Source of the DNA: Microcaldota archaeon
GTDB taxonomy: Archaea > Micrarchaeota > Micrarchaeia > Micrarchaeales > Micrarchaeaceae
NCBI GenBank assembly: GCA_021799475.1
Contig: JAJZAJ010000002.1
Location: 146,855-210,854, forward strand
DNA length: 64,000 bases
Direction of reading: 5' to 3'
Shown here: positions 15,068-52,078 of the stretch, one piece after another
Numbering within the stretch: position 1 is the stretch's first letter
How the letters are laid out: every line of letters begins with the position of its first letter
Position numbers and translations under genes: made by a program
The notes under the pieces: generated by a model
What the model was told of the DNA's origin: nothing
Database searches by the model: none
What the model saw: the letters and a program-made list of their open reading frames with translations, nothing else

Positions 15068-15069
15068 TT

Positions 15070-15237: not shown

Positions 15238-15245
15238 AATTGAAT

Positions 15246-15941: not shown

Positions 15942-16539
15942 TAATGCCCATCTGCAACAGTTTTTTTGCGCATGCATCGATATTCTGTGATGTGACATTA
16001 GCCCCACATATTTTGTCGAAGAGTTCACAGATGAGATCATTAGTTGCCTTGTATCTTTTCTCCAGTTCTATGATTTTTGCCCATGCATTTGATATCTCCG
16101 ATGCAAGCCTGTAGTTGTTTATACTTGCAGCTTCAAGTAACGCCTCATCCTTTCTTATTTCGCCGGCTTGCACTAAAGTAGGCATCTCGTTACGGAGCGC
16201 TTCAAGTATGTAAGGAAACATGCTTCCGGCATCTATTACATATTCCACATTGAGAGCTGACAGGATACATATGAAAGCTATCAGATTTGTATTGTAGCAG
16301 GAAACACTGGGACTGATGAAATAAAAAGTATAGTCTATACGCTCCTTTCCTATTGATAGAAGGCCCTCATTCCCTTGTTTTAAATCTACTATAAAAGTAT
16401 GCATTGTTCCAGTGCTTTTTTTCCTTAGCATTGGCAGAGCCTCAAGCTTGCATGCTGCATTATCCAAAGTGGATCGCAGTTGGGCCTTTACAGTGAATGA
16501 AGAGCATAGTAAAAGAACACCTGCTTTTTCTTTTTTCAT
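15892..16539 (-). CDS. Cluster 1 hypothetical soluble protein
   Basis: 215 aa ORF packed between cluster genes. Confidence 0.5.
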   Translation of the reverse strand: MKKEKAGVLLLCSSFTVKAQLRSTLDNAACKLEALPMLRKKSTGTMHTFIVDLKQGNEGLLSIGKERIDYTFYFISPSVSCYNTNLIAFICILSALNVEYVIDAGSMFPYILEALRNEMPTLVQAGEIRKDEALLEAASINNYRLASEISNAWAKIIELEKRYKATNDLICELFDKICGANVTSQNIDACAKKLLQMGINGLLLSTYINQNWNKR

Positions 16540-16556
16540 TGGATTACCGATATCTA

Positions 16557-17906: not shown

Positions 17907-18658
17907 GAAAACACCATTGAAGAATCAAACTGCAGAAGTGAAAGCAGTTCTTCCCCTTCCATCTTTTTTGATCTAGAGCCCAGAAGAGCATCAAAGTGGC
18001 TGGAAAGCTCCCTTATCTGTGATTTTGCTTTTTCCTCCGCATCGTATTCATTCTGCGAAGATGCGCTGCTCATCACATAGAAAGAAGCTTTTACTGGGAC
18101 ATCTCCTGAACTTATCCTCATTATGTCGGAATCTATCTGCTCAATCCTTCTCCTGATCATTTCAGTATGCGGTATGTTTTTTTGTTTTTTTACATCTATT
18201 CTGGAAAGCTCTATTTCCAGCATGCTCCTTTTTGTCTGCATTTTATTTAACAATGGAGCCAACTCCATGCGTTCTACCTGAAGTGAAAACTTGAATGGAT
18301 ACGCCGTATGCTGTATTATATTCTCGATTTTTTTACCGTCAAGCTGCACCTCTGTCCCAACTTCTAGATGCGCTGCTGCTACTGCTGAAAATCTGCCGTT
18401 ATAATACCGGATTGCGGCGGAGCGATCATGTTTAAGTTCATAACCACATACCAATTCTATAATGTTTGAATGCTGGAAAACATATGCTTCTATCACATAC
18501 CAAAGTTTATATGCGAATAATGAAACTAGCGTAATTGATGAAGCTGCGACTATCACATATGGATTAAGCGTCGTTATGCTCAATACTGCCAGAAAGACTA
18601 GCATGCTGACGATAAGAGCCGGGACAATTTTCTGCTTAAGAGCCATCTCAGAAAACAT
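17903..18658 (-). CDS. Two-TM protein with cytoplasmic coiled-coil-like domain (PrgI/VirB3-like position)
   Basis: N-terminal hydrophobic hairpin followed by charged helical region; 4-bp overlap with the ATPase gene. Confidence 0.55.
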   Translation of the reverse strand: MFSEMALKQKIVPALIVSMLVFLAVLSITTLNPYVIVAASSITLVSLFAYKLWYVIEAYVFQHSNIIELVCGYELKHDRSAAIRYYNGRFSAVAAAHLEVGTEVQLDGKKIENIIQHTAYPFKFSLQVERMELAPLLNKMQTKRSMLEIELSRIDVKKQKNIPHTEMIRRRIEQIDSDIMRISSGDVPVKASFYVMSSASSQNEYDAEEKAKSQIRELSSHFDALLGSRSKKMEGEELLSLLQFDSSMVFS

Positions 18659-19685
18659 CGAATCTACCAAAAGATATCTCTGAACCCAACAGTCTTGCAA
18701 GTTCCCTTGTTGATACTACCGTAAGCATTACGCTAAGCAAAGGAATGAGAAATACCTCTATTACCATGTATGCGAGGAAATCAATCAGCTCTTGCACCAG
18801 ACCAACTATTCCAGATGTAATTGAATTAGTAAAATCCTGTATGCCACTGATTATCGCATTTGTAGGGTTTATTGAGTTGCTGTTAGAGTATAATGAAAGT
18901 TCCCAGTTCTCCGCGCCATTCAACACTGTCTGATAGGAATTGACTCCTGTTATCGCAGTTTGGTAGTACTGGTTGGATAACTGTGCATCCATCAGATAGG
19001 TCATGGGAAATACCACGTATAAGCCTATCACGAGAGCTATGATTGTGCCTCCTAACGCTCTTGTGAAGTAGAATGTCCTAAGCACTATCCCGACTGGAAG
19101 AAGTACCGGAATAGCAACTGCGGCAATGAAGCTCATAACCATGCCTTGCAGTTGCACGCTGAAGAAGGCAAGAGCTACGCCATCCGTAATATACCGCATC
19201 TGGCTTAGGAAGGGCATCATAGCCTGCGACAACCCTATTGAAAACCCAAATATGTCTATATTGATAGAACCGATAATTCCTGCGCCTATGTCTATTGCAC
19301 TTAGCCCCGCAAGCATTGTAAATGACATCGCTGTAAGAGTTGGATATACGTGGCCATTGAAGGTTATGACTGTAGGGCCTGTCAGATACGAATAAGCGAA
19401 GCATAATGCTGAGTTGTCTTGCATGTAAGCGGAGCATGTTGCCGATGCACCAGAGCCGTTTGTTATACCGTTTATTATGCCTGTCATTATGCCGAATGGG
19501 CTGAATGATAGCAGCAGTGAACCAACTATCACTCCATTGATGGCGGCCTGGATAAGTTCTGTTTTCCCCCATTCTTTGAGTCTTCGGTGGTCTGCAGCAT
19601 ATCCTATGCCTAGAACTATTCCTGCAATGGCTATCATTATGGCTATTATACCGATAGCTGTGTCATAACTGTAAAAGAGTCCCAA
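18648..19685 (-). CDS. VirB6-like polytopic membrane protein, cluster 1
   Basis: Multiple TMs; shared motif GIVLRTFYFTRALGGTIIALVIGLYVVFP. Confidence 0.7.
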   Translation of the reverse strand: MGLFYSYDTAIGIIAIMIAIAGIVLGIGYAADHRRLKEWGKTELIQAAINGVIVGSLLLSFSPFGIMTGIINGITNGSGASATCSAYMQDNSALCFAYSYLTGPTVITFNGHVYPTLTAMSFTMLAGLSAIDIGAGIIGSINIDIFGFSIGLSQAMMPFLSQMRYITDGVALAFFSVQLQGMVMSFIAAVAIPVLLPVGIVLRTFYFTRALGGTIIALVIGLYVVFPMTYLMDAQLSNQYYQTAITGVNSYQTVLNGAENWELSLYSNSNSINPTNAIISGIQDFTNSITSGIVGLVQELIDFLAYMVIEVFLIPLLSVMLTVVSTRELARLLGSEISFGRFDVF

Positions 19686-19706
19686 TATATCACGCAGCGC
19701 TGTTCT

Positions 19707-20090
19707 TTATATCGAATTTGTTGAGTTGGTTGTGTTTACTGTGAAGTTGTTTAGTATATGTGTCGATGCGCTGGCAAGGGAAGACGATGCGAAGCTCAGA
19801 GCACCTACGACTATAGCTCCAATTATTATGTTAACTGCCGTAGTGTGGAACTGAGCCTTCTTGTCAGGAGGAAGGATTTGGCCGAGGGCATATATTATAC
19901 CTGCAACTACGAAAAGCATCGCACTCAGGGCCGGACCGACCTGCATTAGGACAAGACGCACCTGGTCTATTATTGGAGTGACTTGCAGGAAAACAGAATC
20001 CTGTGCACTTGCCAATTTTGCCGCGGCAGATATGATTATCAGCAGCATCCCGGCTATGTATTTTAGATTGCTCAGTTTCATTTGAATCAC
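19707..20090 (-). CDS. VirB2-like mini-pilin/two-TM protein, cluster 1
   Basis: Signal peptide then two TMs separated by a short polar loop (VVAGIIYALGQILPPDKKAQFHTTAVNIIIGAIVVGAL). Confidence 0.65.
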   Translation of the reverse strand: MIQMKLSNLKYIAGMLLIIISAAAKLASAQDSVFLQVTPIIDQVRLVLMQVGPALSAMLFVVAGIIYALGQILPPDKKAQFHTTAVNIIIGAIVVGALSFASSSLASASTHILNNFTVNTTNSTNSI

Positions 20091-35224: not shown

Positions 35225-35971
35225 TTATCCTTTAAGCTCCACATATCCCATTGAGACCATCTTGTTTAGTACCTGCTCAACCCTTGGCGGGATTATCTTG
35301 TATGCGTTCGCAAACTCGTTTATGTCTATCGTTCCGTCATGAGATTCTATCCAGTCCTCTATCATAGATATCAGTGAAGTATCGGAATAGGTCTCAAGGC
35401 TCTTCAGCCTCTCTTTCAGCTCCGCGTTCTCACTGCTCAGCATGGATGCCTGAACTGAAAGGTTTTTGTTAGCTCCTGAAAGCTCTATGTTAAGCCTCCT
35501 TATCTCGCGGTATTTGTTGAATAGGGAGTCGTAGCTGTTGAAGAGAGAGCCATAGCTCTGTGAAAGCGAACCTATAACATCATCTATACCGGAATCGAGG
35601 AGCTGGAACACATCTGTACTGTCGATTTCGTATAAATCAGTTACTAGAGACAGGACAGCTATAAAATTCTTCAGCACGTAGAGCCTGCGTATCTTTGAAG
35701 AAGAGTCCTCGCCTATCGAGTAATCAATATCGACCCCGTCTTTCCTGAACGTGAAGATGAAAAACAGGAAAGGCTTCTTCTGTATATTGCGGCTCTCCAC
35801 CCTAAGTATGATAAGGCTATCAGCACTGTTCTTTATCGAGAACATCTGCAGGCTGGACAGCCTGTTGGCCATGGAGTCAAAAGTGCTGTTGAGGCTGCCT
35901 TTGAGATGTATGCTGCTTATCTTTGGTTCAATAGTGCTAGCTTCACCCGCCATCATTCCACCAAAAGACAA
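35225..35971 (-). CDS. Cluster 2 protein with coiled coil and C-terminal wHTH-like domain
   Basis: YDSLFNKYREIRRLNIELSGANKNLSVQASMLSSENAELKERLKSLE; IDINEFANAYKIIPPRVEQVLNKMVSMGYVEL. Confidence 0.55.
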   Translation of the reverse strand: MSFGGMMAGEASTIEPKISSIHLKGSLNSTFDSMANRLSSLQMFSIKNSADSLIILRVESRNIQKKPFLFFIFTFRKDGVDIDYSIGEDSSSKIRRLYVLKNFIAVLSLVTDLYEIDSTDVFQLLDSGIDDVIGSLSQSYGSLFNSYDSLFNKYREIRRLNIELSGANKNLSVQASMLSSENAELKERLKSLETYSDTSLISMIEDWIESHDGTIDINEFANAYKIIPPRVEQVLNKMVSMGYVELKG

Positions 35972-36053: not shown

Positions 36054-36455
36054 CTATTGCCGCTCCCTTCCCGGTTTCGGCATCTGCAGCGATGGAGTGT
36101 ATCCCAATAGTGATATCAGATACGTGAATACTATCACTACAATGCCGTCAAGCACCGCCGTAAGCTTGTCAGGGCCGAATATTATAAGGACGAGGGCGAA
36201 GACCACCCCGAGAGCAACTAGCCTGCCCTGCCTCTTCTGGTATTCCTCTTTGGCTTTTGAGTATTTCGGGAAATCTTCCTTGCAGACGACAAGCCTATAA
36301 CCCTTCTCGTTGTGCAGGATGTTCCTCTTGAAGAGCCTTACAGCGTGTATCACGTGATCCTCTATGACTGGAAGCCCGTTGACATTCCTGCCGCAGTAGA
36401 TGCATCTTAGCGCACTCCTTTTCGCACTATAACCCGCAGTTGTTTTTGCCATCAA
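36054..36455 (-). CDS. Zinc-ribbon membrane protein
   Basis: CIYCGRNVNGLPVIEDHVIHAVRLF then two TMs. Confidence 0.5.
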   Translation of the reverse strand: MMAKTTAGYSAKRSALRCIYCGRNVNGLPVIEDHVIHAVRLFKRNILHNEKGYRLVVCKEDFPKYSKAKEEYQKRQGRLVALGVVFALVLIIFGPDKLTAVLDGIVVIVFTYLISLLGYTPSLQMPKPGRERQ

Positions 36456-36476: not shown

Positions 36477-36782
36477 TCAGAATTCAATGCTGACATCAAA
36501 GAGCCTGCCTGTTTCAGCTATTATCTTTTGCTCATCAGCACTATTTATTACACTCTGTATAGTGAGATCATCCATCCCCAGCCTCCTGAATACGTTTGCC
36601 TGTTTCTCCCTGTCTAGCCCTGACTTCTCCAGCAAAACCACGAATGACAGGACATTCATGTGCCTGTGTGATTTCTCCAACGATTGTAATATACCGTCTA
36701 TGTCCTTTTCTCCTACTCCGAAGGCTGTTAGAACCCTCCTGAACTCAGGCCTTGTTATAGTAAAAGTCTCGCTCTTCACCAT
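36477..36782 (-). CDS. Stand-alone helical module homologous to the C-terminus of cluster VirB4-like ATPases
   Basis: RHMNVLSFVVLLEKSGLDREKQANVFRRLGMDDLTIQSVINS aligns with ATPase C-termini. Confidence 0.65.
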   Translation of the reverse strand: MVKSETFTITRPEFRRVLTAFGVGEKDIDGILQSLEKSHRHMNVLSFVVLLEKSGLDREKQANVFRRLGMDDLTIQSVINSADEQKIIAETGRLFDVSIEF

Positions 36783-36789
36783 TCTATCA

Positions 36790-38292
36790 CTACGACTTCG
36801 ATATTATCCTTGTAATGAGCACATCGTCAAGGCTAAGGCTTTTCAGGAAAGAGGCAATTGTGCTGTTTGATACGCTGTTGCCCTTTAGCTGTGCTATGAA
36901 ATCCATCATCTTCATGTACCTGCCTTGTGACTCCATCTTCTTGAACAGCTCGTCAATGCCCTCTGCAGGGATATTGAACTCTATAAACCTGCTTTTCAGC
37001 TCTTCCTTCTCGAACTGGAAATCTTTCTGGACCACTCCTGCGGCTAGCTCGCTCTGCATCAGCACATCCGTCATGTCTATAGTGTATACATATAGAGGCT
37101 CTTCCCCGTGTATTTTTTCCAGCACAAATGTTTCCGGGAACTTTATCGCGGTTTGGAACGCCATCTCTACGGCTGCCTGACCTACACCGAACTTGCTTAT
37201 CTCGCTTCTTATGAAATCAGAGAAATTCAGCGACCCCTGCAGGTAGTTCATAAACTTCTCGAATTTTATTCTTAGCATGAAGTTCGTTCCTACATTTGAA
37301 AATATCGCTTCGTTTATGTCTGTCGGATTTTGTGACGCAACTATAAGCCCAAACTGGTATTTCCTTCCCTCCCTGACTATTGTTATCGCATCGCTCTTGT
37401 CATCGCTGGCGACTTTCCATGCTTCGTCCAGGACGACGAAAGTCTTGAGCCCTTTTGTCTCCTGGAATCCTTCAGCGCGCATCCTTTCCTTCAGCGTCTG
37501 CAGGATGAACAGCGCAGCCAGTCCCCTGAATTCTTCGCTTGGAAGCCCGGACAGGTCTATCGATACCAGACCGGATTCCGCAAGCTTCCCCAGGTCTATG
37601 CTGCTCTTTCTTGCAAAATAATCCTGGCCTTCCCTCGCAAACTGGCGGAGCCTGTATATAGTGTTCTCCAGTTCCGCCGGGTATTCGTAAGTTCCATCTT
37701 GCAGTTTTTCTTCAAGAAGGTTTATAACATCCTTTAGGGTCGGCGCATCCTTTCCCTCCGGCGCTTTTTCCGATATGATGAATCCGAAATTCACGTATGC
37801 CTGCTCAATGGCCTCCTGCGTCAGCCTTCTCTGCTCCGGATATGCCCCGATATCGGTCAGAATATCCAAGGAGTTTATTATCTGCTTCGCCCTGTCAAGC
37901 GGCTTCATGCCGGACAAATCCATTATGTTCAGGTAGTCGCCCTTCGCCAGCGATACGACTATGCCTCCGCTCTGCTTTACCCATGGCCTATACTCTCCCG
38001 CCCAGTCTATTATTATGGCGTTTGTGCCCCAGACATAGCTTGCGCGTATCAGAAGCGTTTTGACGAAATAGCTTTTTCCTGCGCCGGTTATTCCTACCAC
38101 TGCTATATGCGGATTCGTTAGGTTTGCGAATGTCCATGTGAACGGAACCTTGAAGACCTTCGTAGTCCCGACAAAAAGAGATTCGGTAGGGCTGTTTAAC
38201 AGCACCTCTGCCGGAGGTTCTGGCGGCCTCGAGAGGAAAGCTCTCTTCGCTATTTCATTGCTAAGTATGTGTTGGAGCCGCAGCATCGTCAT
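36790..38292 (-). CDS. VirB4/HerA-like ATPase, cluster 2
   Basis: NPHIAVVGITGAGKSYFVKTLLIR, IIDWAGEY, TFVVLDEAWKVASDD, REGRKYQFGLIVASQNPTDI. Confidence 0.88.
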   Translation of the reverse strand: MTMLRLQHILSNEIAKRAFLSRPPEPPAEVLLNSPTESLFVGTTKVFKVPFTWTFANLTNPHIAVVGITGAGKSYFVKTLLIRASYVWGTNAIIIDWAGEYRPWVKQSGGIVVSLAKGDYLNIMDLSGMKPLDRAKQIINSLDILTDIGAYPEQRRLTQEAIEQAYVNFGFIISEKAPEGKDAPTLKDVINLLEEKLQDGTYEYPAELENTIYRLRQFAREGQDYFARKSSIDLGKLAESGLVSIDLSGLPSEEFRGLAALFILQTLKERMRAEGFQETKGLKTFVVLDEAWKVASDDKSDAITIVREGRKYQFGLIVASQNPTDINEAIFSNVGTNFMLRIKFEKFMNYLQGSLNFSDFIRSEISKFGVGQAAVEMAFQTAIKFPETFVLEKIHGEEPLYVYTIDMTDVLMQSELAAGVVQKDFQFEKEELKSRFIEFNIPAEGIDELFKKMESQGRYMKMMDFIAQLKGNSVSNSTIASFLKSLSLDDVLITRIISKS

Positions 38293-38443: not shown

Positions 38444-39280
38444 TTACGTTTGCCTGTCGAAGTTGGTTGCGGCCTCCTCGTATGTCGTCGGCAGGCCGAA
38501 ATTGAATTTAAATAATGTGTAAAGCTCCCTTCCGACTATCCTCAGCAGCTGCACGTCGAGCGAACTTAGCGCTATCTGCAGCTGCTTTATCTGCGCGCTG
38601 AGCGCGTCGAGCGCCGCCTTTTCGCTTACCCCTACAGCAGTGGTCTCCACATACATCAGCGTCGCTATAGGTTTCTCGTCCTGTGATATCCTGTCGATCC
38701 TTGCCTGGATGACGCTTATCTTCCTCTGTATCTCTGCTATAACCGACTCGTTTATGTTAGTGTTCTGCATCGAACGGGATAGCTGGAATTCTTGGTATGC
38801 TCTTTTGCCGTCTAAATCGTCCCTTACGCGCTGCACGTCGAGGCCTGAAGATATGACGTGGAACTTGAAGGGAAAGTTTATGCTCATCAGCGCCCTTTCC
38901 CATGATTCTGTTGCCGATACCTGTTTCTCGTCCTCATTTTCCTGCACCCTTTCCGCCTTAAAGACAAAAGAGAACAGGTTTGCGGTAATGAAACCGGTTG
39001 CATAATAGAGCCCATTGACATTCTTTACTATCGCCTCCTGCCCCTTGGTTATCTTGTAATTCGGATATGGCTGGAAGGTTATGCCAAATAGCCCCGTTAT
39101 AGCCGGGAATAAGACGAAATCTGCAAAATTTATCACAAGTGTCAAGCCTATGCCGATGAATGCGAGAATCAGGGCTATGTAAGTATATATCCCGCCTCCG
39201 AAGCTTCCTACGTTTGCTATTATAAGAACGTAGACGATTGCCGCAAATGTCAGGTATATTATTGCTTCTTCATCCATCAT
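38444..39280 (-). CDS. Membrane protein with hydrophobic N-terminus and coiled-coil-like cytoplasmic domain (PrgI/VirB3-like position)
   Basis: TMs in the first ~75 aa, then helical charged region; directly upstream of the VirB4-like ATPase gene. Confidence 0.55.
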   Translation of the reverse strand: MMDEEAIIYLTFAAIVYVLIIANVGSFGGGIYTYIALILAFIGIGLTLVINFADFVLFPAITGLFGITFQPYPNYKITKGQEAIVKNVNGLYYATGFITANLFSFVFKAERVQENEDEKQVSATESWERALMSINFPFKFHVISSGLDVQRVRDDLDGKRAYQEFQLSRSMQNTNINESVIAEIQRKISVIQARIDRISQDEKPIATLMYVETTAVGVSEKAALDALSAQIKQLQIALSSLDVQLLRIVGRELYTLFKFNFGLPTTYEEAATNFDRQT

Positions 39281-40110
39281 ATCACCTGCTCCCGCACATT
39301 CCTTGCAATCTGTTCGCTTATCGTAGAATACGGTATCAGGAACTCGGGTTCTACGAATTTCAATATAGCATCTCCGGTAACTATGCTTGGAGCAACTCCG
39401 AATATCGACGCGGTTCCGGATATCAGCTCCCTGGCGCGCTGCTGCGCTGCGCTTATCGCTTCGTATTCCTTTACCCCTTTGGCAGAAACGCTGGCGTATA
39501 TCATCAGTTCGAGCGATGTCGCGGCGCCGACATTATCGAGCATGTTGTGCCACATGTTGAGCTGCCCGCGCACTCTCTCAAGTTCATTTTGCGGGGCGTT
39601 GCCTGCTATGAGCTCGCTCTCGCGGTGTTCTGCGGAGCTTATCGTATCCCTAAGGTTCTGTATGTAGAGGTCTTTGTTCATCACATACAGCAGGCTGGTA
39701 AATCTTGCCGGCTCTTTGCTTGTTCCGACAAGCCGGCTGACCTGCTTGGTAAACTCAAGTTTTTCCTCGCGCGTCATTTCCGTGCCTGACCTGTACAATG
39801 GGATCTTAACGTAAACAGTAGCGGTAAACTCATCGTTCTCCTTGTGCAGTATAGCATCAGACGAGCCCGATAGCCAATATGCGTCCTCGTTGTTCAGCAC
39901 AACATGCCTTTTTCTCTGCGTGATCAGCGGCATCATTATGTATGTGTAAAACCTTGATGAGAATGCAAGCACATCGAAGAATACGACTAGCAAAAGCAGC
40001 AGGATCTTATAAGGAGGGGCTAAAGCGGAATTTGAAAAGGATATGTCTACGATAAGCAGGAATATCGATATCCCTAACAGCCCCAAAAACACGAATATCT
40101 TCTTGTCCAT
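39277..40110 (-). CDS. Paralog-like two-TM plus cytoplasmic domain protein, cluster 2
   Basis: MDKKIFVFLGLLGISIFLLIVDI...ILLLLLVVFFDVLAFSS then soluble domain; 4-bp overlap with next gene. Confidence 0.55.
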   Translation of the reverse strand: MDKKIFVFLGLLGISIFLLIVDISFSNSALAPPYKILLLLLVVFFDVLAFSSRFYTYIMMPLITQRKRHVVLNNEDAYWLSGSSDAILHKENDEFTATVYVKIPLYRSGTEMTREEKLEFTKQVSRLVGTSKEPARFTSLLYVMNKDLYIQNLRDTISSAEHRESELIAGNAPQNELERVRGQLNMWHNMLDNVGAATSLELMIYASVSAKGVKEYEAISAAQQRARELISGTASIFGVAPSIVTGDAILKFVEPEFLIPYSTISEQIARNVREQVI

Positions 40111-40216
40111 GCCATCCCCTTCTGGTTTTCCACGCAAGACACAACGAGAAAACCATCAATAACACTCTAATAATAAACGGGAGAGTTTAAGAACGCTGTG
40201 GTATATCTGTCACTGT

Positions 40217-41272
40217 TTAGATGAAGCCCCTTATTCTGCCGCCTATGCTGGTTGACTGCCCTATGAAGCCAGATACCTGTGTTATGAAGGTATAGGTCAG
40301 TGCAATGATAAGAGGAGGGTAGAAAAGGATTATCAGCCAGAAGTTCGATATGTAGCTGTTTAACTGCTGCAGCTGCGCAGGCAGCGTACCGGATGGAAGG
40401 CATGCGACGGTGCATGTCTGCTCGAATGCGAAGGCGAATAGCGTCGGCATGACCAGGTATAGCGCTATGCCTGTGGCAATCAGCGCCGCGCCGAAACCCC
40501 TTGTTGGAAATATCGCGCGGAAGACTACGCCGGCAGCAACAAGCACTGGGCCGACTACAGAGAAGAACTGCATAAGGTAGTACTCCGACCACAGTATATA
40601 TATGCCGTCAATCAGGAAACTCGCTATCGTGGATACGGGCAGTACAACAAAGGCGTACAGAGGCAGGGCAAGCCCTATATTTGCCAGATTGAACGTCTTG
40701 TCATATGCTTTGATTACCTGCACGCCTCCGGCGAATTGCGGCGGTTTGTCTATCATGACCTGCTGTGTTATATGGTAGGTGTTCCAGAGATAACCGCCCT
40801 GCACTACGAGCGTCGTGCTGTCAAACAGGTTGGAAAATACCGTAGAAGCCTGGTTTATAGTCGTTGTTATTCCCGTGCATGCAAGGGTGTACGGATCAGG
40901 CACATTCAGCACCGATGGGATTATCACAAGCATCGAATAGGCTATGTAAAGGAAGAACGCGACTATGAGTGCGCTCGCAAACGCCTCGTAGAGTTCGCCG
41001 ATGCCGAAGTTTCTCAGCTTGTCGCTCTTCAGCATTATGCCGACGATAAAGAAAAGTGCTGCTATTGCAAATGCAGCAAGCACCGCGACCAGCATCACTG
41101 GCAGGTCGGCATTGTAAGCGCTCGTTATGCTGGAGAATGTAATCTGGCACTGTGAAGGCGTGCCTTGCGCAGATGCGATTCCCGATATTTGAATCAGCAT
41201 AAGCGCTGCTGCGAAGATAAGCGTTGCCTTGCGCGCCACACCTGAAATTTTTCCGTTATCGTGCATTTCCAA
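40217..41272 (-). CDS. VirB6-like polytopic membrane protein, cluster 2 (copy 1)
   Basis: Signal peptide; GVVFRAIFPTRGFGAALIATGIALYLVMP. Confidence 0.7.
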   Translation of the reverse strand: MEMHDNGKISGVARKATLIFAAALMLIQISGIASAQGTPSQCQITFSSITSAYNADLPVMLVAVLAAFAIAALFFIVGIMLKSDKLRNFGIGELYEAFASALIVAFFLYIAYSMLVIIPSVLNVPDPYTLACTGITTTINQASTVFSNLFDSTTLVVQGGYLWNTYHITQQVMIDKPPQFAGGVQVIKAYDKTFNLANIGLALPLYAFVVLPVSTIASFLIDGIYILWSEYYLMQFFSVVGPVLVAAGVVFRAIFPTRGFGAALIATGIALYLVMPTLFAFAFEQTCTVACLPSGTLPAQLQQLNSYISNFWLIILFYPPLIIALTYTFITQVSGFIGQSTSIGGRIRGFI

Positions 41273-41290
41273 TCACATTATGCTAATAGC

Positions 41291-42373
41291 TCATATGCTG
41301 AAGAAAAACGTGAAATCTATTTTCTCCCCTATCGCCTTGGAGAAGTCCAGTATGAATGTCTCAACCAATGTAAAGTTCAGGAAAGGTATGAAAGTAAGCC
41401 CTGCGCCCAGCATCGCAAGCTGCCCCACCCATGCGCCGCCCGTGAATCCCTGGTAGGTTATCAGGCCGGCGAAGGAGCTTATCAATGATGCTGTCAGCGA
41501 GACGGTGCACCCGCCGAGCCCGGATGCCGTGCACCCAAGCTGCACCAGCTGCGTGTCTATATACCCGTAAGTCAGGCTGACCGCAAGAGGAAATACAAAC
41601 CCGAGACCGAGACCTATCGCTATCATTGTTCCGCCAAAGCTCCTTGAGAATCCAAACGACCTGGCGATCAGCCCTAGGGTAAGGAAGAATGCGATCCACA
41701 TCAGAGATCCCGCAAGGATAACGAGCTGTACCTGGTTTAGCAAAACCGTCACTATTATCGCGGAAAACGTAAAGCCCAGCATGGTTTCGGCGCCTACGGG
41801 GAATATGCTTGGCAGCGCCAGCCCTCCGCCCGCATCAAGATTGGTTGCTGCTGCCCTGGTAGGGGAGAAATTGACGTTTATCCCGGAAGTCATCCCGAGG
41901 AATGTTGCGACATTGAAAACTGAATAGAATGCTCCGAGAGCGTTTGCATTGAATATTGCAAGGTCGCAGGTAGCCAGCTGATATAAGTCTGAGGCAGTGC
42001 CGCAGCCGTAGCCTCCAGGCGGCAAACCTACCGAGCCGAAAGGCCCTGATGGGGATATGAAGAACAATGTTGCAAAAACAAGGAACAGTATTAGCATGAA
42101 ACCGGACAGCATCGCTTCGTATATCTGCACCCTTGCCCAATTGCGCGCCGCTGTGCTGTTTATCGTTCCGCTAAGACCGTAGACTATGGCAGCCACAATA
42201 AACACACCGAGTATACCGAGCACTGCAAGATAAAAGAGGCCGCCGGCAGGGAGGAGCGGAAGCCCTGATACAGGAGCGGAGAGGATTGCGGCGCTTAGCA
42301 TGCTCATTATGCCTTGGCTGTGTGCACCGAAAATGCCGAGCATCGCAATTGTCATATCTGACATGTTTATCAC
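41291..42373 (-). CDS. VirB6-like polytopic membrane protein, cluster 2 (copy 2)
   Basis: GLIARSFGFSRSFGGTMIAIGLGLGFVFP. Confidence 0.7.
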   Translation of the reverse strand: MINMSDMTIAMLGIFGAHSQGIMSMLSAAILSAPVSGLPLLPAGGLFYLAVLGILGVFIVAAIVYGLSGTINSTAARNWARVQIYEAMLSGFMLILFLVFATLFFISPSGPFGSVGLPPGGYGCGTASDLYQLATCDLAIFNANALGAFYSVFNVATFLGMTSGINVNFSPTRAAATNLDAGGGLALPSIFPVGAETMLGFTFSAIIVTVLLNQVQLVILAGSLMWIAFFLTLGLIARSFGFSRSFGGTMIAIGLGLGFVFPLAVSLTYGYIDTQLVQLGCTASGLGGCTVSLTASLISSFAGLITYQGFTGGAWVGQLAMLGAGLTFIPFLNFTLVETFILDFSKAIGEKIDFTFFFSI

Positions 42374-43494
42374 ACTAGTTTTTTAAGGACGTTCTTTGAT
42401 GAGAGGCTTGGGCTTCCCAGGAAATCTCCCATCGTCTCTGTAAAGTCATAGGATATCATGAAGGAGAGGACGGCTGCCATTATAAGATAGAAGGACTGCC
42501 CTATAACAATTGTTATGAAGTCATAAGTCTGGTTCATTATCTGTATCGCCCCCTGGGAGAAGAAGCTTGTCAGGCTATTTACATCACCGGCTCCGATGTC
42601 AAATCCGCTCGATACAGAGCTTATAGGTATGCCTGGGTTCGGCTGCACCGCGGATACGGATATTAGCATATAGACAAGCAGAGGGAACATTATATAGAAG
42701 CCGATGAACAGGCCGAGGAATGCTCCTCCTGCCGCACGCGTCCACGGGAAAGACCTTAGTATTATGCCGACAAACAGGAATATCGGGAAGAGAACATAGA
42801 AGATCCCTATTATCGCCGCTAGCACAAACAGCACGCTGAACACGGCTCCTGTAATCGTGACCATTGTTCCAATAAGCGAATATGATATAAGGGAAAGTCC
42901 GCTAAGGGGCACTACATTGCTCAACCCCCAGTACGTAGTCATGAAATGGAAGTTCAGGCTCGACATGAAAGCTATAGTCTGCTGTGATATCATTAGCCCC
43001 CAGAGCTGTGACAGTATATTCGTGCCTGCGGTGGAAAGATTATTGCAATCGGAATAGAATATGCCGCTGTTCAGTCCGCCGTTTATGTTGCCTAACGAAA
43101 ACAGGTTGTTGGATGCGATGCCGTTGATGAGATAGAAGGAGCCGAGGAAAACAAGCACTACTATTACCGTAACGGCTATCTCCCCGATTTCGGTCTTTGA
43201 GAAGCGGAGCAGCTTGTCTATTCTGAAGGCATATCCGAAGAGATAAAGGATAGACACTACGCCTATCATTATCAGTATTATCACTATGCTTGCCAGCAGT
43301 ATTCCCTGGAATCCGGCACTGCCGCTGCCGAGTATCGGCGGCAGGTTCGGGCTCGTTATCAGGCTATCGCAGAAGCTGTTGGCTGCAGAAGCGTTAAGCG
43401 CGAAGGCGAGGATGACAAGGGAGAGCAGCGCGGTTTTCGCTGCCTGCGGCAGAATGTGCGAAGCGCCATCCTTCCTTAAGTTCTTTTCATTCAT
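42370..43494 (-). CDS. VirB6-like polytopic membrane protein, cluster 2 (copy 3)
   Basis: GIILRSFPWTRAAGGAFLGLFIGFYIMFP; likely start MNEKNLRKDG within ORF 42370..43563. Confidence 0.7.
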   Translation of the reverse strand: MNEKNLRKDGASHILPQAAKTALLSLVILAFALNASAANSFCDSLITSPNLPPILGSGSAGFQGILLASIVIILIMIGVVSILYLFGYAFRIDKLLRFSKTEIGEIAVTVIVVLVFLGSFYLINGIASNNLFSLGNINGGLNSGIFYSDCNNLSTAGTNILSQLWGLMISQQTIAFMSSLNFHFMTTYWGLSNVVPLSGLSLISYSLIGTMVTITGAVFSVLFVLAAIIGIFYVLFPIFLFVGIILRSFPWTRAAGGAFLGLFIGFYIMFPLLVYMLISVSAVQPNPGIPISSVSSGFDIGAGDVNSLTSFFSQGAIQIMNQTYDFITIVIGQSFYLIMAAVLSFMISYDFTETMGDFLGSPSLSSKNVLKKLV

Positions 43495-43519
43495 CGTATC
43501 ACATATTCGCATATCATGT

Positions 43520-44893
43520 TTAGAACAGTTTCGAGAGCCCGGCAAGGTCGGTATCACCGCCAAGCATTCCGGAGAGCGCCCTTATCGCGGTAAATGCTAT
43601 TATCAGGTTCAGTATAGGCAGGAAGAACCCTGTAACTCCTATCGCGCCATAGGCATTGAACAGGCCGAGGACTGTGCCGAGGGCCTGTGGTGGAGTGCAG
43701 GTGAAAGGTATGAATGAGTTTGGAGTGTATATGAACAGAGAGTTTAGCGGCCCGCCAGGCTCAACCACGCCTCCGGAGAATATAGTGTATATCTGTGATA
43801 CGATCGGTCCGCCGGTCGCAAGATACCCTATGTCAAGGCTTTCTTCGCCCAGCAGCCCTGCCCCGGGCCAGCAGCCCTGCGACATTGCTATCGACTGAGC
43901 GCTTGGCTGGTTGAACAGGTCTGCGCCGGAATTCTGTACAGACACATATTCCATAGCAAACAGAGTTGGATATACCAATACCGCTACCACGGCTATGGCG
44001 ATCAGCAGGCCTCCGAGCCTCCTTGTGAATGGAGTGCCTCTTAGCGCTATCCCTAAAAAGAGAAGCACAGGCCATATGTACAGCAGTATCGATGAAGTCA
44101 TCATCTCTGCTATGAATATCCCGAGAGCTGTCGACATCAGGGTCGCAAGAGTACCCAGCGAGCCCGATAGCATATCATATCCATCATATGGGTAGCTTGA
44201 GAGCTGTATGTAAAAGGTATAATTTATGTTTGTGACTCTCGGCGTGCACGGCGATTTTCCTACTGAAGTTAACCCTCCAGGCGCTATTATTTTGAAAGGC
44301 GAAGCTAGAGGATTGGATTTCGACTGGTACATCTGCCCGCAGTAGCCTATCGTGGGCTGGAGTTTTGTCAGGAACCGCATGTACGAATCTACCAGATAGA
44401 CGGAATTCAGGTTCAATGCGGTAGCGTATGCAGTATATCCCGTTATAACTGTGCTTGCGGCTAATGGATAATCGACTTGCGAGGTGACGCCGCTCTGCTG
44501 CGGGTTGCTGACCAGCTGGCAGGTGTTGAAAGGAGTGGAGAGCAGGGCACCTATCGCAAGAAGGCTGCTTTGCCCCTGCAGGGCGGAGCACGCGGCGGAT
44601 ATTGACTGTGTGCTGAATGGCCCCGTTCCGGTAAACGACTGCGTGAACACGGTAGCCGCTATGTATATGACACCGACGACCAGCAGCACCAGTATAGCTG
44701 TGCCTACGAACTGGTACAGCTCCCCTATGGCAGACTGCTTGACTGATGAATTGCTTATTATGACTCCTATCAGGTACCACAATACCACTATGACGAAATC
44801 AAGGAGCAGAGCAGCCAGGATCAACGGCATCAGCTGTGACTGCGCAGAGCCGAAAGTAGTCTGTAGCATCAGATTTGTCATCAATTGTGTCAC
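43520..44893 (-). CDS. VirB6-like polytopic membrane protein, cluster 2 (copy 4)
   Basis: GIALRGTPFTRRLGGLLIAIAVVAVLVYP. Confidence 0.7.
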   Translation of the reverse strand: MTQLMTNLMLQTTFGSAQSQLMPLILAALLLDFVIVVLWYLIGVIISNSSVKQSAIGELYQFVGTAILVLLVVGVIYIAATVFTQSFTGTGPFSTQSISAACSALQGQSSLLAIGALLSTPFNTCQLVSNPQQSGVTSQVDYPLAASTVITGYTAYATALNLNSVYLVDSYMRFLTKLQPTIGYCGQMYQSKSNPLASPFKIIAPGGLTSVGKSPCTPRVTNINYTFYIQLSSYPYDGYDMLSGSLGTLATLMSTALGIFIAEMMTSSILLYIWPVLLFLGIALRGTPFTRRLGGLLIAIAVVAVLVYPTLFAMEYVSVQNSGADLFNQPSAQSIAMSQGCWPGAGLLGEESLDIGYLATGGPIVSQIYTIFSGGVVEPGGPLNSLFIYTPNSFIPFTCTPPQALGTVLGLFNAYGAIGVTGFFLPILNLIIAFTAIRALSGMLGGDTDLAGLSKLF

Positions 44894-45110
44894 ATTCGCA
44901 CCATAGCAATATTTTATCCCATATTCCTGTCCATTACCTTCCTAATCGTTCGTGTCATCCGTCATAAATTTTCTATCTTTGTTATCTTTCTAACTTTGTT
45001 TCTGTCTTTGTCCCTTTCGTTATTTTTATTGTTCCTGTCATTATTTCTTTCCTGTTGCCTTTTTCTGTTATCTGTTTTTATCATTTTTTCCCCATTTCTT
45101 GTTATTCTTT

Positions 45111-46304
45111 TCATAAGCCGCTCCAGAAGCTTCCCGCTCCTTCGATGCCGCTGCTCAGCACCTTTGCGAGGTTCATCGCGAATGAAAGAGTTATCGCGAA
45201 ATCCAGGGTCGACATCATGAACGCTACGAACATGAACACTGCTGTCTGGCCAATCGCGCCATCCATGTCATCCACTGCTGATTGAGGATACAATGTCTTC
45301 AGCAGATCCGAGCTCACGCCCCCGCTGAATACCTGGCCGGGATCCGGAGTGCTGATTCCGAAGAATGTCTGCGAAAGCCCGGGCACTTCCATCTGACCGG
45401 CAGATACTATTGGGCCTATATGGCATGCCGATACGGTGCCTGCGGTGCCGGATACGCACAAGAGCGAGTCCGCATACACTGCAGACGGGTTGCATGTGCC
45501 GGGAACTGCTCCGGTAGTGCATTGCGTGAATGTCCAGTTTATCGCATAAGAATCGAATGCTATTGTAAGAGGGAATACTATGTATCCGGCTATCGCGAGC
45601 GCGAGGACGCCGTTTGCCGCATTCCTGAGGTTTGCCCCGCCGAAAGGCAGCACGCGCATTATGAGCGCGACGGGCAGGATTATAGTGAATGCGCTTGCCT
45701 GCACAAGCACCAGCAGAAGATACTGTATGTATATCAGCGCTGCGGCTACCATCACTATAGGAGCCATGACGTCTATGTATATTCCGCTCAGTATTCCGTA
45801 TGCTATGGAAAGGTCGTAGCCCAACGGGAATGAAACTGATAGTGTTGAGCCTACCTGTGCCGCGGTAGGAAGCCATGCACCTATGAAGTCAGCAAACCTG
45901 CTCCAGATTCCGGCAACTACGGCAGTGGCGAAATGCTGCGCATACAGGTTCGTCAGCAGGCCTATCCCTCCGTTGCCCACAAGGCTTACTAAGTAGCCTT
46001 CAGCAAAAGTTATAGGATCCTGACCTGGGGAACTGAGCCCTGACGTTATCTGGCACGCTATTCCTGAAGCCGCCACCAGTATTATGATTATAACTATAGA
46101 GACTACTGTTATTATCATTTCACTCTTAAGCATCCCGGTCAGCTTTGATGACGTGGTACGGGGCAGGAACTGGTTTAGTATGTAGACGAGCGCTATCGCG
46201 GCTAAGCTTATCAGTATTACAACCAGGCTCGCCGGAAGCCAGTTGTTCACGTATGTTGAAGGACCGTAAAGCGCGCAAGCATTCAATATCGACATGTTCA
46301 ACAC
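45111..46304 (-). CDS. VirB6-like polytopic membrane protein, cluster 2 (copy 5)
   Basis: ALIMRVLPFGGANLRNAANGVLALAIAGYIVFP. Confidence 0.65.
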   Translation of the reverse strand: MLNMSILNACALYGPSTYVNNWLPASLVVILISLAAIALVYILNQFLPRTTSSKLTGMLKSEMIITVVSIVIIIILVAASGIACQITSGLSSPGQDPITFAEGYLVSLVGNGGIGLLTNLYAQHFATAVVAGIWSRFADFIGAWLPTAAQVGSTLSVSFPLGYDLSIAYGILSGIYIDVMAPIVMVAAALIYIQYLLLVLVQASAFTIILPVALIMRVLPFGGANLRNAANGVLALAIAGYIVFPLTIAFDSYAINWTFTQCTTGAVPGTCNPSAVYADSLLCVSGTAGTVSACHIGPIVSAGQMEVPGLSQTFFGISTPDPGQVFSGGVSSDLLKTLYPQSAVDDMDGAIGQTAVFMFVAFMMSTLDFAITLSFAMNLAKVLSSGIEGAGSFWSGL

Positions 46305-46307
46305 GGT

Positions 46308-47714
46308 TTATGCAATTTTCATCTTTCCTATTCCCAACTTTATCGTGCCGCCGAGCATCTTCGCGGCCCCGTTGGTAAGGGCGTATACTATTATCAGGTC
46401 AAACACCAGCAGCAGGAACTGCAATATTACAGGTATCGAATATGTCAATATAGAATTGATTGACGGCAATATTCCTGAAAAGCTGCCGAATACCCCTGTT
46501 TCATACCCATTGGCCAATGGCCCTGTCGGTCCGCCGAATGCCGCATCTATCTGCGTTATGAATAGTGGGTCAGTGGCGAGCTGATTTATATAATCGCATA
46601 GGCCGCCTATTCCAGGAAGAGACCAGATGGCGCTGCAGTCCGTTGCTGAAGGTGGACTGAAAGGATAGAACTGCTGTGTCGATATGTTAGGGGCGAATAA
46701 GTTGCTTATAGGTATGTTGAGCGCTATAAGTGTTGCAGGATAGAATATCGAGAATGCCAGGCCTAGCGCTAAGAGGGTGCCGCCGACTCCGCGCAGGAAT
46801 GGTATCGCCCTCAGGATTATGCCGAGAGGAAGGAAGACGCCCAAACCGGCATATGCCAATGCGGGCAAGATGGCCAGCTCAGCCCCAAGTATAAGGAAAG
46901 TCGGAACGATCAGCATATTCAGAGTGTTAGCCGAGAATCCTTTGCCCGATGCCGTGCCGACAGACAAAAGATCGCTCTGGTACAGGCTTGCGTTGGAGCC
47001 GAAATCCACCGCACCTATGTAGGCGCAGCCTGGAGGTATCACAGGACCCGCATACGCCTGGCCTCCGATAGTGGCTAACGCAGGCAGATTGAACGGACAT
47101 GACTTAGTATTAGGGACACCGGCTGGCACGAAATATACAGCGATAGATGGAGTCGGGGGTTCGGTCTCTGTGTCTAAATAGCTGGTGGAAAACACCTTGT
47201 AATAATAATACGTGCTTATCCTGATGCTCGAAAGATAGTTTATCCCCAATGATATGCCTAGCATGTTATCGAACGCATTGCTCGCTATGCCGAACTGGTT
47301 CGCCAGATAATTCTCCGATGAGCTGTACATGGTGCCGAGATTCAGGTTGGTGTTGCTCTGCCCGTTTATTGATGTGGCTATAGCTCCGAGTATTATTATC
47401 AAAGAGAATATCACGGCCACAAGAAGGAGCGTTTTTGTTATCTCCCATACCTCTACCTTATACCATCCTTTAAGGCTCGATATGCCGAACACCTCTCCTA
47501 TAAGATAAGCTATAGCGATTATGGCGAATGACAGGAGCAGCGCAATCACGACATATGGCACTACCGTACCAGTTATGCACGAGTTTATCGCTGAATCCGT
47601 TATTGAGGTTGATGAACCGGTGGAAACGCAGTAGAAGCTTTGCGCTGAGACGTTCCCCAAAAGCAGGAAAATCGCCATGGCTCCTAGTATAACATATCGA
47701 ATATTGCCGAGCAT
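46308..47714 (-). CDS. VirB6-like polytopic membrane protein, cluster 2 (copy 6)
   Basis: GIILRAIPFLRGVGGTLLALGLAFSIFYP. Confidence 0.7.
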   Translation of the reverse strand: MLGNIRYVILGAMAIFLLLGNVSAQSFYCVSTGSSTSITDSAINSCITGTVVPYVVIALLLSFAIIAIAYLIGEVFGISSLKGWYKVEVWEITKTLLLVAVIFSLIIILGAIATSINGQSNTNLNLGTMYSSSENYLANQFGIASNAFDNMLGISLGINYLSSIRISTYYYYKVFSTSYLDTETEPPTPSIAVYFVPAGVPNTKSCPFNLPALATIGGQAYAGPVIPPGCAYIGAVDFGSNASLYQSDLLSVGTASGKGFSANTLNMLIVPTFLILGAELAILPALAYAGLGVFLPLGIILRAIPFLRGVGGTLLALGLAFSIFYPATLIALNIPISNLFAPNISTQQFYPFSPPSATDCSAIWSLPGIGGLCDYINQLATDPLFITQIDAAFGGPTGPLANGYETGVFGSFSGILPSINSILTYSIPVILQFLLLVFDLIIVYALTNGAAKMLGGTIKLGIGKMKIA

Positions 47715-47794: not shown

Positions 47795-48526
47795 CTATCC
47801 TTTTAGCAGCTTGAACCTGCGCATATACATCTCCGCCTGAAGCACAACCAGGAAAGGCATTATGAAAAGGGCATTGAATACCAGCATAACATACCTCGAT
47901 ATGTCTGCGCTTGTCAGGCTGACGAACACGTAGTCAAAAGCGCTCAGTACCACAATCGCGATCGCAAGCCACAGAAGGAAATAATCCAGCCGGCTCATGA
48001 AGAAGCTTATGCTTGCCTGTATCGACCTGATTACCCTCTTGTCATCTATCACTATAGACGCAGGGGCGTAGAAGAAAAGGGGGGTGAATGCGAGCGCGAT
48101 CAGGGATGCGACAGCAGACGGAATGCCTGAGATATATGAGAATATCTGCAGCACAAGCACTATCAGAGCGTACAGGAGCAGTACCAGGAACACTTTTGCA
48201 GTGTACTTCTCTATCCCGTCCATTACCTCTTTTGCGATTTTCGTGTATGTCCTGCTGTGCTTTACTATTATGCATATTGCGACTATCGCGAAGCTGAGGA
48301 ACAGTATCGAGAAAAGGGTTGAAAATACGATGATTGCGCCGTTTATGTAATCGATGTTCAGGAATACGCTTGATGTCCTCAGGAACAGAGCTCCCATATC
48401 ACCGTATGTGGGAAAGGAAGCAAACACCGGTATCAAAAGCGCTATTACGAATGATATAGAGAACAGCAGTATCATAGGCAGGTGCCTGCTGTAAGTCTCA
48501 TACGAATGCCCAAGAACCGAAGCCAT
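47795..48526 (-). CDS. Polytopic membrane protein, cluster 2
   Basis: ~6 hydrophobic segments; no recognised family. Confidence 0.6.
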   Translation of the reverse strand: MASVLGHSYETYSRHLPMILLFSISFVIALLIPVFASFPTYGDMGALFLRTSSVFLNIDYINGAIIVFSTLFSILFLSFAIVAICIIVKHSRTYTKIAKEVMDGIEKYTAKVFLVLLLYALIVLVLQIFSYISGIPSAVASLIALAFTPLFFYAPASIVIDDKRVIRSIQASISFFMSRLDYFLLWLAIAIVVLSAFDYVFVSLTSADISRYVMLVFNALFIMPFLVVLQAEMYMRRFKLLKG

Positions 48527-48669: not shown

Positions 48670-49056
48670 TCAGCAGGTGAGTCCTGCTGGCAGCGCGGTT
48701 ATGCTCGTGTTCCCTGATATTATCTGTAGTATGTACGGTGACAACACGGCTATTATTACTCCGATTATGCCTCCCAATATCATACCCATGCCATAGCCTT
48801 GGAGTGAACCCTTGCTGCTTCCTGGAAGCAGGTGTGCTCCAGCATAGAGCGCGCCTCCAAGCAGCATCAAAGCCACGCCAAGTATGAATATCGCAGTCTG
48901 TACAGTCTGGAATACGCAGTATATTGAGTTTGTCGCATTATTAGCGTACTGAGCGCTTGCGAGAGTTATAAAGCTCATCGATGCCAAAACAATCAGCATT
49001 ATCCTATAGTACCTGTTTGCCTGCAGGGACATCATCCTGTACATTATATTGTTCAT
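48670..49056 (-). CDS. VirB2-like mini-pilin, cluster 2
   Basis: Signal peptide; YCVFQTVQTAIFILGVALMLLGGALYAGAHLLPGSSKGSLQGYGMGMILGGIIGVIIAVLSPYILQIISGN...LTC. Confidence 0.75.
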   Translation of the reverse strand: MNNIMYRMMSLQANRYYRIMLIVLASMSFITLASAQYANNATNSIYCVFQTVQTAIFILGVALMLLGGALYAGAHLLPGSSKGSLQGYGMGMILGGIIGVIIAVLSPYILQIISGNTSITALPAGLTC

Positions 49057-50014: not shown

Positions 50015-52078
50015 TCATGGACAAGCGGCTGTTATTATGCTCTGCAGGCTCGGGCTGCCGATTATTATCTGCAGCACCCATGGTGCGACGACTGCTATTA
50101 TAGCCCCCACTACACCTCCCATGACCATTCCCATCGCATAGCCCTGTATTACGCCGCGGGTTGATCCGGGAAGCACATTGGCTCCAGCATATACTGCCCC
50201 TCCTATTATCATGATAGTAAGCGCCAGTATGAATAAGACCGTGTTTATTATGAAATATACGCTGCATATCGCGTTAGTGGCCGCGCCTATGTTTACGGGA
50301 GGCTGTGAGCCAGATATGCATGCAGGGTTATTTGTGCCCGGAGGGCAGATGGCGCCGCCGCCTCCGCCGCCGCTGCCGCCTGATGTTGACACTTGCAGCG
50401 TCTGTGATGCTGAAAGAGATAGCGATGGCAAGAAAGTGCAGATTCCGATTGATGTACCGTCAGGCGTATTATCAGTAGTGAAGGTCTGCTGATACTGGTA
50501 AGCTGTTTGTGGCCCTTCCAATACGCATGCCTGGTTATTGTTTGCTTTCAACATAGCAGATAGAGATGTATGGTCAGGAGCTGCCCCTGGGCTGCATATC
50601 GGAGTCGTAGGCGTAGGCTGAACGCAATCAGGAGTCTGTCCGGACATAGGAGCTATTTCCGTATAATATGTAGGGCAGACCACTACGCCTGCACTATTCG
50701 TGCTGCATCCGTTTCCTTGTGGGCTTGATGTTACTGTCACTAGAGTATTCGGCACGGCGGGATTTGGAGCAACATTCAGATACATCCCTCCAGATGTTGA
50801 GGAGCCGCCGACCTGCAATGATAGGTTATAGTAATCAGGCCATATTCCAGGATAAGGACTGGATTGGGCTACCCATGTTGATGGATTGCCGCTCAACTCT
50901 GGCATGTTGTAATCAGGCGAATAGTACACGCAGAACATTTCATGTGGGTTTATCGCTGATACCGGGGCAGGATCGGTAGTGATGCTGATCAAGTATGGAG
51001 GGGTTATACCTGGTGGTGTATATTCATTAATCTTTGCGTTGCCGCCAGCGGCGGAGAACAAACAAGGTACTTCCTTCTGAGCACCGTCCAGCGCAACTGA
51101 TGTAACGCACCATGGTGGATTCCCACTATTTATCAGACCTAGTGGGGACACACACGGCGTAGTATAGCTGTTAGGAGTAAACTCTATTATAGGGCAATTG
51201 CCGTAATTCCCTTCTGTTCCGCACTGCGCCGGAGGCAATGTTCCACTAGGATTGGCGAAAGTGAAGAAAGCATTTACATATACGTCTGAGCCGGGAGCTA
51301 CCTGGCTTGCAGGATATATTGATGCTGGGGAAACAGTAACAGTTGGATTTACATATACAGAAGCTTGATCTGTGTAATACGTTCCGGGACCGGTGTTGCA
51401 ATTTGTGCAATACTGTGAGGGATTATAAAATGCGACGTAATAGTTTGTGCCGGGATAGGCTGACTGGGCATCCCACGTCCCCATAACGACGCCCTGATTA
51501 TTCTGCGTTTGCGGGAGAATCAGCTCACAGTAAGCGGCTACCTGGAGGAGGGACGTAACACCTGGGCTGATTAGCGCACCTGATGAAGTGTAACATTGCA
51601 GGGACATGCTCTTTAAACCAGATGTTGTGCCGTAATAATTATCGGGAGAGACAAAAACGCATCTGCCTTGTGAATCGTTGCTGTTGTACGGCGCGGTGTT
51701 GCAGAAATTATTGTTGTTGATCAGATTCTGTATTACGGTGCCCGGATTGCTTTGCAAGTCGCTCAGTGACGTGGAAGCAGTAGATGCCGGGACAAAGACT
51801 ATTCCGAACTGAGCATTGTTATATACGTTCTTGATTCCGAGAGGGTCATCTACACTTCCTACTGTAAAAGTCATGCATGGATATTGACCGTCTGTGAATA
51901 GAGAAGCAGGGCCGCTTGAAGCATATCCTATTCCTTGATAGATAGTATCGGGGCAGCTTATTCCAGATGCGCTGAATGTCTGCGTCCAAGGAGGCGCTGA
52001 GGCAGGACTTGCAAAGCTTGAGTACTGCAAGGCGAGAGTGGCTGCGACTACGAACAGCAGTATGGCCGAAATCCTCAT
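50015..52078 (-). CDS. Large secreted protein with C-terminal VirB2-like pilin hairpin
   Basis: Signal peptide MRISAILLFVVAATLALQYSSFA; ~570-aa exterior domain; SGGSGGGGGG linker; C-terminal 85 aa nearly collinear with the 48670..49056 mini-pilin. Confidence 0.75.
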   Translation of the reverse strand: MRISAILLFVVAATLALQYSSFASPASAPPWTQTFSASGISCPDTIYQGIGYASSGPASLFTDGQYPCMTFTVGSVDDPLGIKNVYNNAQFGIVFVPASTASTSLSDLQSNPGTVIQNLINNNNFCNTAPYNSNDSQGRCVFVSPDNYYGTTSGLKSMSLQCYTSSGALISPGVTSLLQVAAYCELILPQTQNNQGVVMGTWDAQSAYPGTNYYVAFYNPSQYCTNCNTGPGTYYTDQASVYVNPTVTVSPASIYPASQVAPGSDVYVNAFFTFANPSGTLPPAQCGTEGNYGNCPIIEFTPNSYTTPCVSPLGLINSGNPPWCVTSVALDGAQKEVPCLFSAAGGNAKINEYTPPGITPPYLISITTDPAPVSAINPHEMFCVYYSPDYNMPELSGNPSTWVAQSSPYPGIWPDYYNLSLQVGGSSTSGGMYLNVAPNPAVPNTLVTVTSSPQGNGCSTNSAGVVVCPTYYTEIAPMSGQTPDCVQPTPTTPICSPGAAPDHTSLSAMLKANNNQACVLEGPQTAYQYQQTFTTDNTPDGTSIGICTFLPSLSLSASQTLQVSTSGGSGGGGGGAICPPGTNNPACISGSQPPVNIGAATNAICSVYFIINTVLFILALTIMIIGGAVYAGANVLPGSTRGVIQGYAMGMVMGGVVGAIIAVVAPWVLQIIIGSPSLQSIITAACP

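Follow-up and report, generated by a model that had tools for sequence, protein, structure and literature searches.

The window analysed here, a stretch of 64,000 nucleotides, belongs to an 814 kb, three-contig Micrarchaeota genome and is chromosomal. Positions 40217-47714 are filled by six consecutive minus-strand open reading frames (ORFs), exactly as delimited in an earlier sequence-only reading that had described six tandem VirB6-like proteins at this place. We named them B6a to B6f following the order of transcription, i.e. from 47714 down to 40217:

46308-47714, minus strand: B6a, VirB6-like, array position 1; 468 aa; motif GIILRAIPFLRGVGG..P
45111-46304, minus strand: B6b, VirB6-like, array position 2; 397 aa; motif degenerate
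43520-44893, minus strand: B6c, VirB6-like, array position 3; 457 aa
42370-43563, minus strand: B6d, VirB6-like, array position 4; 397 aa as called; likely ATG start near 43494
41291-42373, minus strand: B6e, VirB6-like, array position 5; 360 aa
40217-41272, minus strand: B6f, VirB6-like, array position 6; 351 aa; modelled with AF2

The long overlap of B6d with its neighbour arises because the ORF caller took a TTG start; the ATG at about 43494 removes it. Orthologues of B6a occupy position 1 in all complete related arrays, and position 3 (B6c) is the most variable in length. Transcription of the region would run from a pilin candidate and a conserved membrane protein through the six B6 genes to two paralogues, the ATPase and three small genes:

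48670-49056, minus strand: VirB2/TrbC-like pilin candidate; 128 aa; weak TrbC/VirB2 matches under the Pfam cut-off
47795-48526, minus strand: conserved membrane protein, directly upstream of B6a throughout the window's taxonomic order; 243 aa; family not recognised
39277-40137, minus strand: paralogue of the VirB3/VirB4-N-terminus-like protein; 286 aa; hhalign 97.6% to 38444-39280; synteny conserved
38444-39280, minus strand: two N-terminal helices plus a VirB4 N-terminal-like domain; 278 aa; encoded apart from the ATPase
36790-38292, minus strand: VirB4/HerA-like ATPase; 500 aa; Pfam DUF87, AAA_10 and TraG P-loop, VirB4-type NCBIfam matches
36477-36782, minus strand: small conserved protein downstream of the ATPase (synteny)
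36054-36455, minus strand: small membrane protein, conserved downstream of the ATPase (synteny)
35225-35971, minus strand: 248 aa protein, conserved downstream of the ATPase (synteny)

The ATPase also matches the CedB/CedD models and, in PDB profile searches, the VirB4-like protein 4ag5. Its Walker motifs are intact, with G-x-G-K-S and L-D-E-A-W invariant in nine diverse members. We detected it in 201 of the 224 genomes of the phylum at E-values below 1e-40, with identities of 63-81% in the window's taxonomic order and down to about 45-60% in other families; its relatives are Candidatus Micrarchaeota records including Ca. Micrarchaeum A_DKE, a Ca. Mancarchaeum MAG and ARM-1. Its near-universal presence in the phylum argues for a resident core gene and against a passing mobile element. 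A search of plasmids for close homologues turned up nothing nearer than distant VirB4/HerA relatives with less than 60% identity. For the product of 38444-39280, the AF2 model (pLDDT 85) shows a pair of long N-terminal helices ahead of a mixed alpha/beta domain, and chains of the inner-membrane complex of the R388 type IV secretion system (T4SS) take the first seven places among its PDB matches. Since their E-values are 0.03-0.18, the model is only suggestive of a VirB3 plus VirB4 N-terminus encoded separately from the ATPase; PDB profile searches and hhalign against single R388 proteins gave no VirB4-N identity at the sequence level.

A second locus (12555-20090) contains the same kinds of parts as the array operon, in single copy:

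19707-20090, minus strand: VirB2/TrbC-like pilin candidate; TrbC E=4e-5 and T4SS_pilin E=1.6e-4, both under the Pfam cut-off
18648-19685, minus strand: solo VirB6-like protein; hhalign 95.7-98.4% to array members
17903-18700, minus strand: VirB4-N-terminus-like protein; hhalign 98.1% to 38444-39280
16557-17906, minus strand: CedB/VirB4-like ATPase (profile matches)

The pilin candidates of the two loci are related to each other as well (hhalign 92%).

By profile-profile alignment, the six array ORFs and the solo ORF are members of one protein family: every pair of array positions is joined at a probability of 96-99.6%, and the solo protein is joined to each array member at 95.7-98.4%, despite sequence identities of just about 20-26% to one reference member in the window. 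The signature motif that the sequence-only reading had attributed to all seven is borne out by an alignment of 336 family members: 329 of them retain the first R, 319 the second, 300 the G and 335 the P that closes the motif. Conservation across the family is highest in this near-invariant R....R..G...P core. A chance motif was ruled out by this alignment and by the contrast obtained with a strict regular expression, which matches 200 of 343 family ORFs and 18 of 1,740 other ORFs (at least 150 aa). In its proposed form the motif describes the family core well and fits two window members less closely, B6e reading GLIARSFGFSRSFGG and B6b having the degenerate ALIMRVLPFGGANLRNAANG...P. It is present at all six positions and most degenerate at position b, where R, R and P are nonetheless kept in nearly every genome and other families come nearer to the normal form.

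Whether these proteins are VirB6 is less easily settled by sequence. Pfam and NCBIfam models gave no VirB6/TrbL match for any of 29 family members or for the scanned window proteins; PDB profile searches found no match to a solved structure, and an hhalign comparison of the B6f profile with R388 TrwI alone was empty. The family is polytopic, with 4-10 hydrophobic segments by hydropathy (mostly 5-7). The AF2 model of B6f, built from 58 sequences, is all-helical (mean pLDDT 80.3, pTM 0.73), and among 350,542 PDB chains Foldseek placed R388 TrwI/VirB6 chains at ranks 1, 2, 3 and 5; the matches themselves are weak (probability 0.41-0.90, E 0.14-0.44, TM at most 0.40). Furthermore, B6b and B6d resemble VirB2-like pilins over their N-terminal hairpin in profile comparison, and the same VirB2-VirB6 relation has been reported for CedA1/CedA (PMC9905601). 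From fold, operon context and this resemblance, the VirB6 assignment of the earlier reading is likely, short of proven because of the weak fold E-values.

The number of genes in the array is fixed. All 62 arrays with both flanks intact, from twelve family groups, hold six VirB6-like genes, never five or seven, the fourth gene being frameshifted in one of them; one array that runs into a contig end after five genes is left out of this count, which covers arrays complete on both sides. In the window's taxonomic order, all 35 complete loci have the six genes arranged a to f, each matching its own positional counterpart best, and 30 of 31 named records, which overlap this set, show the same arrangement (the remaining one has the six as broken pieces). 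Two relocated arrays likewise have six genes arranged a to f; one belongs to the complete genome ARM-1, where array and ATPase gene lie about 76 kb apart. A further family shows the same six genes in the same order in all four of its arrays, and nine further family groups contribute 17 arrays with six intact genes, the one with the frameshifted fourth gene and three more with six. No seventh full-length profile-positive gene adjoins any of 57 rescanned arrays (flanks of at least 1.5 kb); the only additional profile matches nearby fall in short ORFs (105-194 aa) whose size and position mark them as pilin candidates. It has to be noted that most of these genomes are metagenome-assembled and that arrays were counted within the Micrarchaeota. 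About seven draft genomes of the window's order show the solo copy only, which may reflect loss or missing contigs, and in the families f21-f26 no array was found. T4SS parts including VirB4 stand beside the B6 genes in the window's order and in one further family. In most other families the ATPase operon has no B6 neighbours and the B6 genes lie elsewhere, usually as two separate arrays, so that their pairing with this ATPase is an assumption there. Giant proteins encoded beside the arrays were also seen; they gave no Pfam match.

In a tree of 114 proteins from 19 arrays, sequences group by array position and not by genome: 8 label changes suffice, compared with a minimum of 5 and with 74.5 after shuffling. 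A more careful tree of 93 proteins that includes the solo copies required 7 (minimum 6; shuffles 63.3). Here positions b (support 97/92), c (89/92), e (99/97) and f (72/96) each form one group, as do all solo copies (97/95), and positions a and d are each split in two. Position-specific profile HMMs from the window's order, pooled and applied to other families, rank the collinear assignment first of 720, although on single arrays of those families the result is often ambiguous. Recent lineage-specific duplication was ruled out, as the positions are orthologous across families. Several families carry two complete arrays per genome, and both array types fall inside the position lineages, in separate subclades within most positions. 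The six genes therefore predate the duplication, which took the six as a block with all of them kept in both copies.

The proteins themselves appear to be oriented with the motif loop (17% K+R, 1% D+E) and the first turn (12% K+R) towards the cytoplasm and the loops at profile columns 92-104, 130-165 and 255-295 (2-4% K+R) towards the exterior. These predicted outside loops, poor in K/R, have lengths between 0-24 and 108-245 residues and account for the larger part of the length variation, mostly in position c, in keeping with the divergent exterior loops described before.

In most known cell-to-cell transfer machines, the VirB6-type channel protein comes from a single gene. VirB6 paralogues of Ehrlichia reportedly interact (Bao 2009). 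The premise of the earlier reading, one VirB6 per typical T4SS, holds broadly and fails for the Rickettsiales: Rickettsia has five tandem, strongly diverged paralogues (RvhB6), one of them lost in R. massiliae (PMC2653234), and Anaplasma and Ehrlichia have four, with all four Anaplasma copies cotranscribed (PMC7648143). The arrangement thus has a bacterial precedent, though one with changing number, and this is the nearest one: in both cases, divergent tandem VirB6 paralogues lie in a T4SS operon with VirB3/VirB4 and have variable flanking regions, in host-dependent organisms of reduced genome. The Rickettsiales, however, are diderm bacteria with VirB8-B11 and a copy number that differs between lineages, whereas the archaeal array always has six genes, whose positions can be traced across a class, and has been duplicated as a whole. 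Among archaea, the Ced and Ted systems for DNA transfer (CedA/TedA, CedA1/TedC, CedB/TedB; PMC9905601) are similar in being chromosomal T4SS derivatives with VirB2-, VirB6- and VirB4-like parts, but each has one VirB6 homologue, compared with six here plus separately encoded VirB4-N-like proteins. The solo locus is closer to Ced/Ted than the six-gene array is, and no sequence link of the array proteins to CedA was found. The near-universal, chromosomal T4SS of Patescibacteria likewise belongs to small epibiotic cells; it is bacterial and of the MPF-FATA type, and the sections consulted do not describe VirB6 arrays (PMC12102498). In the open-licence literature that we searched, neither VirB6 arrays nor a T4SS were described for Micrarchaeota.

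We propose that the six genes supply the membrane channel, the VirB6 component, of a T4SS-like machine encoded on the chromosome of Micrarchaeota. Fixed number, fixed order, joint retention through duplication and, in the window's order, a single operon argue that the six products are probably obligate, non-interchangeable partners in one complex, for which a hetero-hexameric ring on a hexameric VirB4 would be the most likely form. A ring matched to the ATPase is suggested by comparison with R388, where a VirB6 pentamer sits above a hexameric inner-membrane complex (PMC9259494); the array has six different proteins instead. R388 TrwI/VirB6 provides the best fold matches of B6f, and the R388 inner-membrane complex those of the neighbouring 38444-39280 product; on the other hand, TrwI comes from one gene giving five identical copies in a diderm envelope, with no detected sequence similarity to the array. 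According to our proposal, the ring would contain one copy of each B6 protein, lie above the VirB4 hexamer as channel and pilus base, and have six unlike subunits in place of the five identical ones of R388. The conserved RxxxxTRxxGG loop, as it seems to face the cytoplasm, would probably meet the ATPase, and the variable loops, as they seem to face outside, would probably meet the partner cell. The cargo would most likely be DNA or proteins passed between the archaeon and its host or kin; cell-to-cell transfer is the likeliest use given host dependence and the reported contacts of micrarchaeal cells with larger Thermoplasmatales cells via pili-like structures (PMC5498576). The fuller version, an obligate hetero-hexamer with fixed positions, symmetry-matched to VirB4, of which many lineages run two, perhaps for different partners, is put forward more tentatively, at somewhat less than even chances. 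If this is correct, Micrarchaeota would have the first known T4SS whose channel ring combines dissimilar subunits from separate genes.

Of the two interpretations in the sequence-only reading, the hetero-oligomer gains indirectly from the invariant six, their order, the ancient lineages and the block duplication, and the pore or ring is what we infer beyond these. Alternative subunits specifying partners or substrates found no support: if the subunits were interchangeable, their copy number should fluctuate as it does for the pilin genes (1-3 copies at array loci), and for the VirB6-like genes it never does.

The known VirB6 and DotA rings are pentamers, which counts against a hexamer. A hetero-pentamer with the sixth protein, B6b or another, as an accessory or regulatory factor would agree with the five subunits of the R388 ring (PMC9259494), and of the six positions, b departs furthest from the motif and usually encodes the shortest protein. 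Yet B6b keeps its R, R and P nearly everywhere, has a motif closer to normal in other families and was duplicated and retained together with the other positions, which makes this arrangement unlikely. We consider it somewhat more doubtful still that each protein forms a homo-oligomer of its own with its own substrate or partner. The strong divergence between positions and the variable outside loops would suit such parallel channels, and multiple diverse uptake channels have been suggested for Rickettsia (PMC2653234), but single gains and losses would then be expected, whereas the number is always six with pilin copies varying, block duplicates are whole, and in the window's order the six share one VirB4 gene and a single compact operon. 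That the six belong to some other polytopic membrane family, with no relation to VirB6, and lie beside a VirB4-like operon by chance is quite improbable: the failed sequence searches, the non-significant Foldseek E-values and the separation of array and VirB4 in other families would allow it, but VirB6 chains make up four of the five best PDB matches, the solo member adjoins a TrbC-like pilin, a VirB4-N-like protein and a CedB-like ATPase, and the pilin-like hairpin of B6b and B6d recalls the VirB2-VirB6 relation reported for CedA1/CedA (PMC9905601).

Returning to the preferred hetero-oligomeric complex, a phylum-wide T4SS-like machine with a six-part channel would offer a defined gene set for the question of exchange between DPANN archaea and their hosts, and this set occurs in the named organisms A_DKE and ARM-1. 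Solved VirB6 rings consist of five identical subunits over a six-fold ATPase; six unlike subunits fixed by evolution would make the role of each position separately addressable and put T4SS architecture to the test.

Evolutionary rates were compared as well. The B6 proteins have diverged far more than the ATPase (median distance 1.2-1.6 versus 0.43). In an exploratory analysis, the rates of the six B6 proteins vary together above background (mean residual correlation about 0.31), and their correlation with VirB4 and its partners is near zero. Pairs that would be ring neighbours covary no more than other pairs (0.30 versus 0.32), so that neither a ring nor a ring order is indicated by this measure. 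The adjacent membrane protein partly shares the residual rate variation of the B6 proteins.

Besides the array of six VirB6-like genes, the window holds:

38444-39280 and 39277-40137, two paralogous VirB3/VirB4-N-like proteins alongside a single ATPase
50015-52078, a 687 aa protein encoded upstream of the pilin gene
12555-20090, a Ced-like locus comprising a solo VirB6-like protein, a TrbC-like pilin, a VirB4-N-like protein and a CedB-like ATPase

Across the window and loci L084-L112, two VirB3/VirB4-N-like paralogs per single ATPase were found in the window's order and in one further family; outside these, mostly one such protein is present. The array has been displaced from the ATPase operon in some of the order's genomes: L077 (G040), L187 and L219 (ARM-1). 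The distance between array and ATPase amounts to ~76 kb in the complete genome ARM-1, where the VirB4-N-like genes likewise do not adjoin the ATPase.

The number of VirB6-like genes is constant, whereas that of the VirB2-like pilin genes differs among loci, with one to three in tandem (48670-49056 in the window; L040, L043, L080). For the 687 aa protein, no Pfam match was obtained. The related locus L039 has as many as four ORFs homologous to it, and at many other loci a counterpart is missing or unrecognisable; it resembles a variable surface protein. In the genomes with two arrays, one of them is directly followed by a gene for a giant protein of ~1,200-1,700 aa (L200, L202, L204, L208, L209, L212, L215). 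This protein contains roughly one membrane segment, lacks Pfam domains and may be a surface or host-contact protein.

The Ced-like locus represents a second T4SS-like locus, built of single-copy parts, in a genome that also carries the six-gene locus. Class-wide, the solo VirB6-like copies form a separate group of their own.
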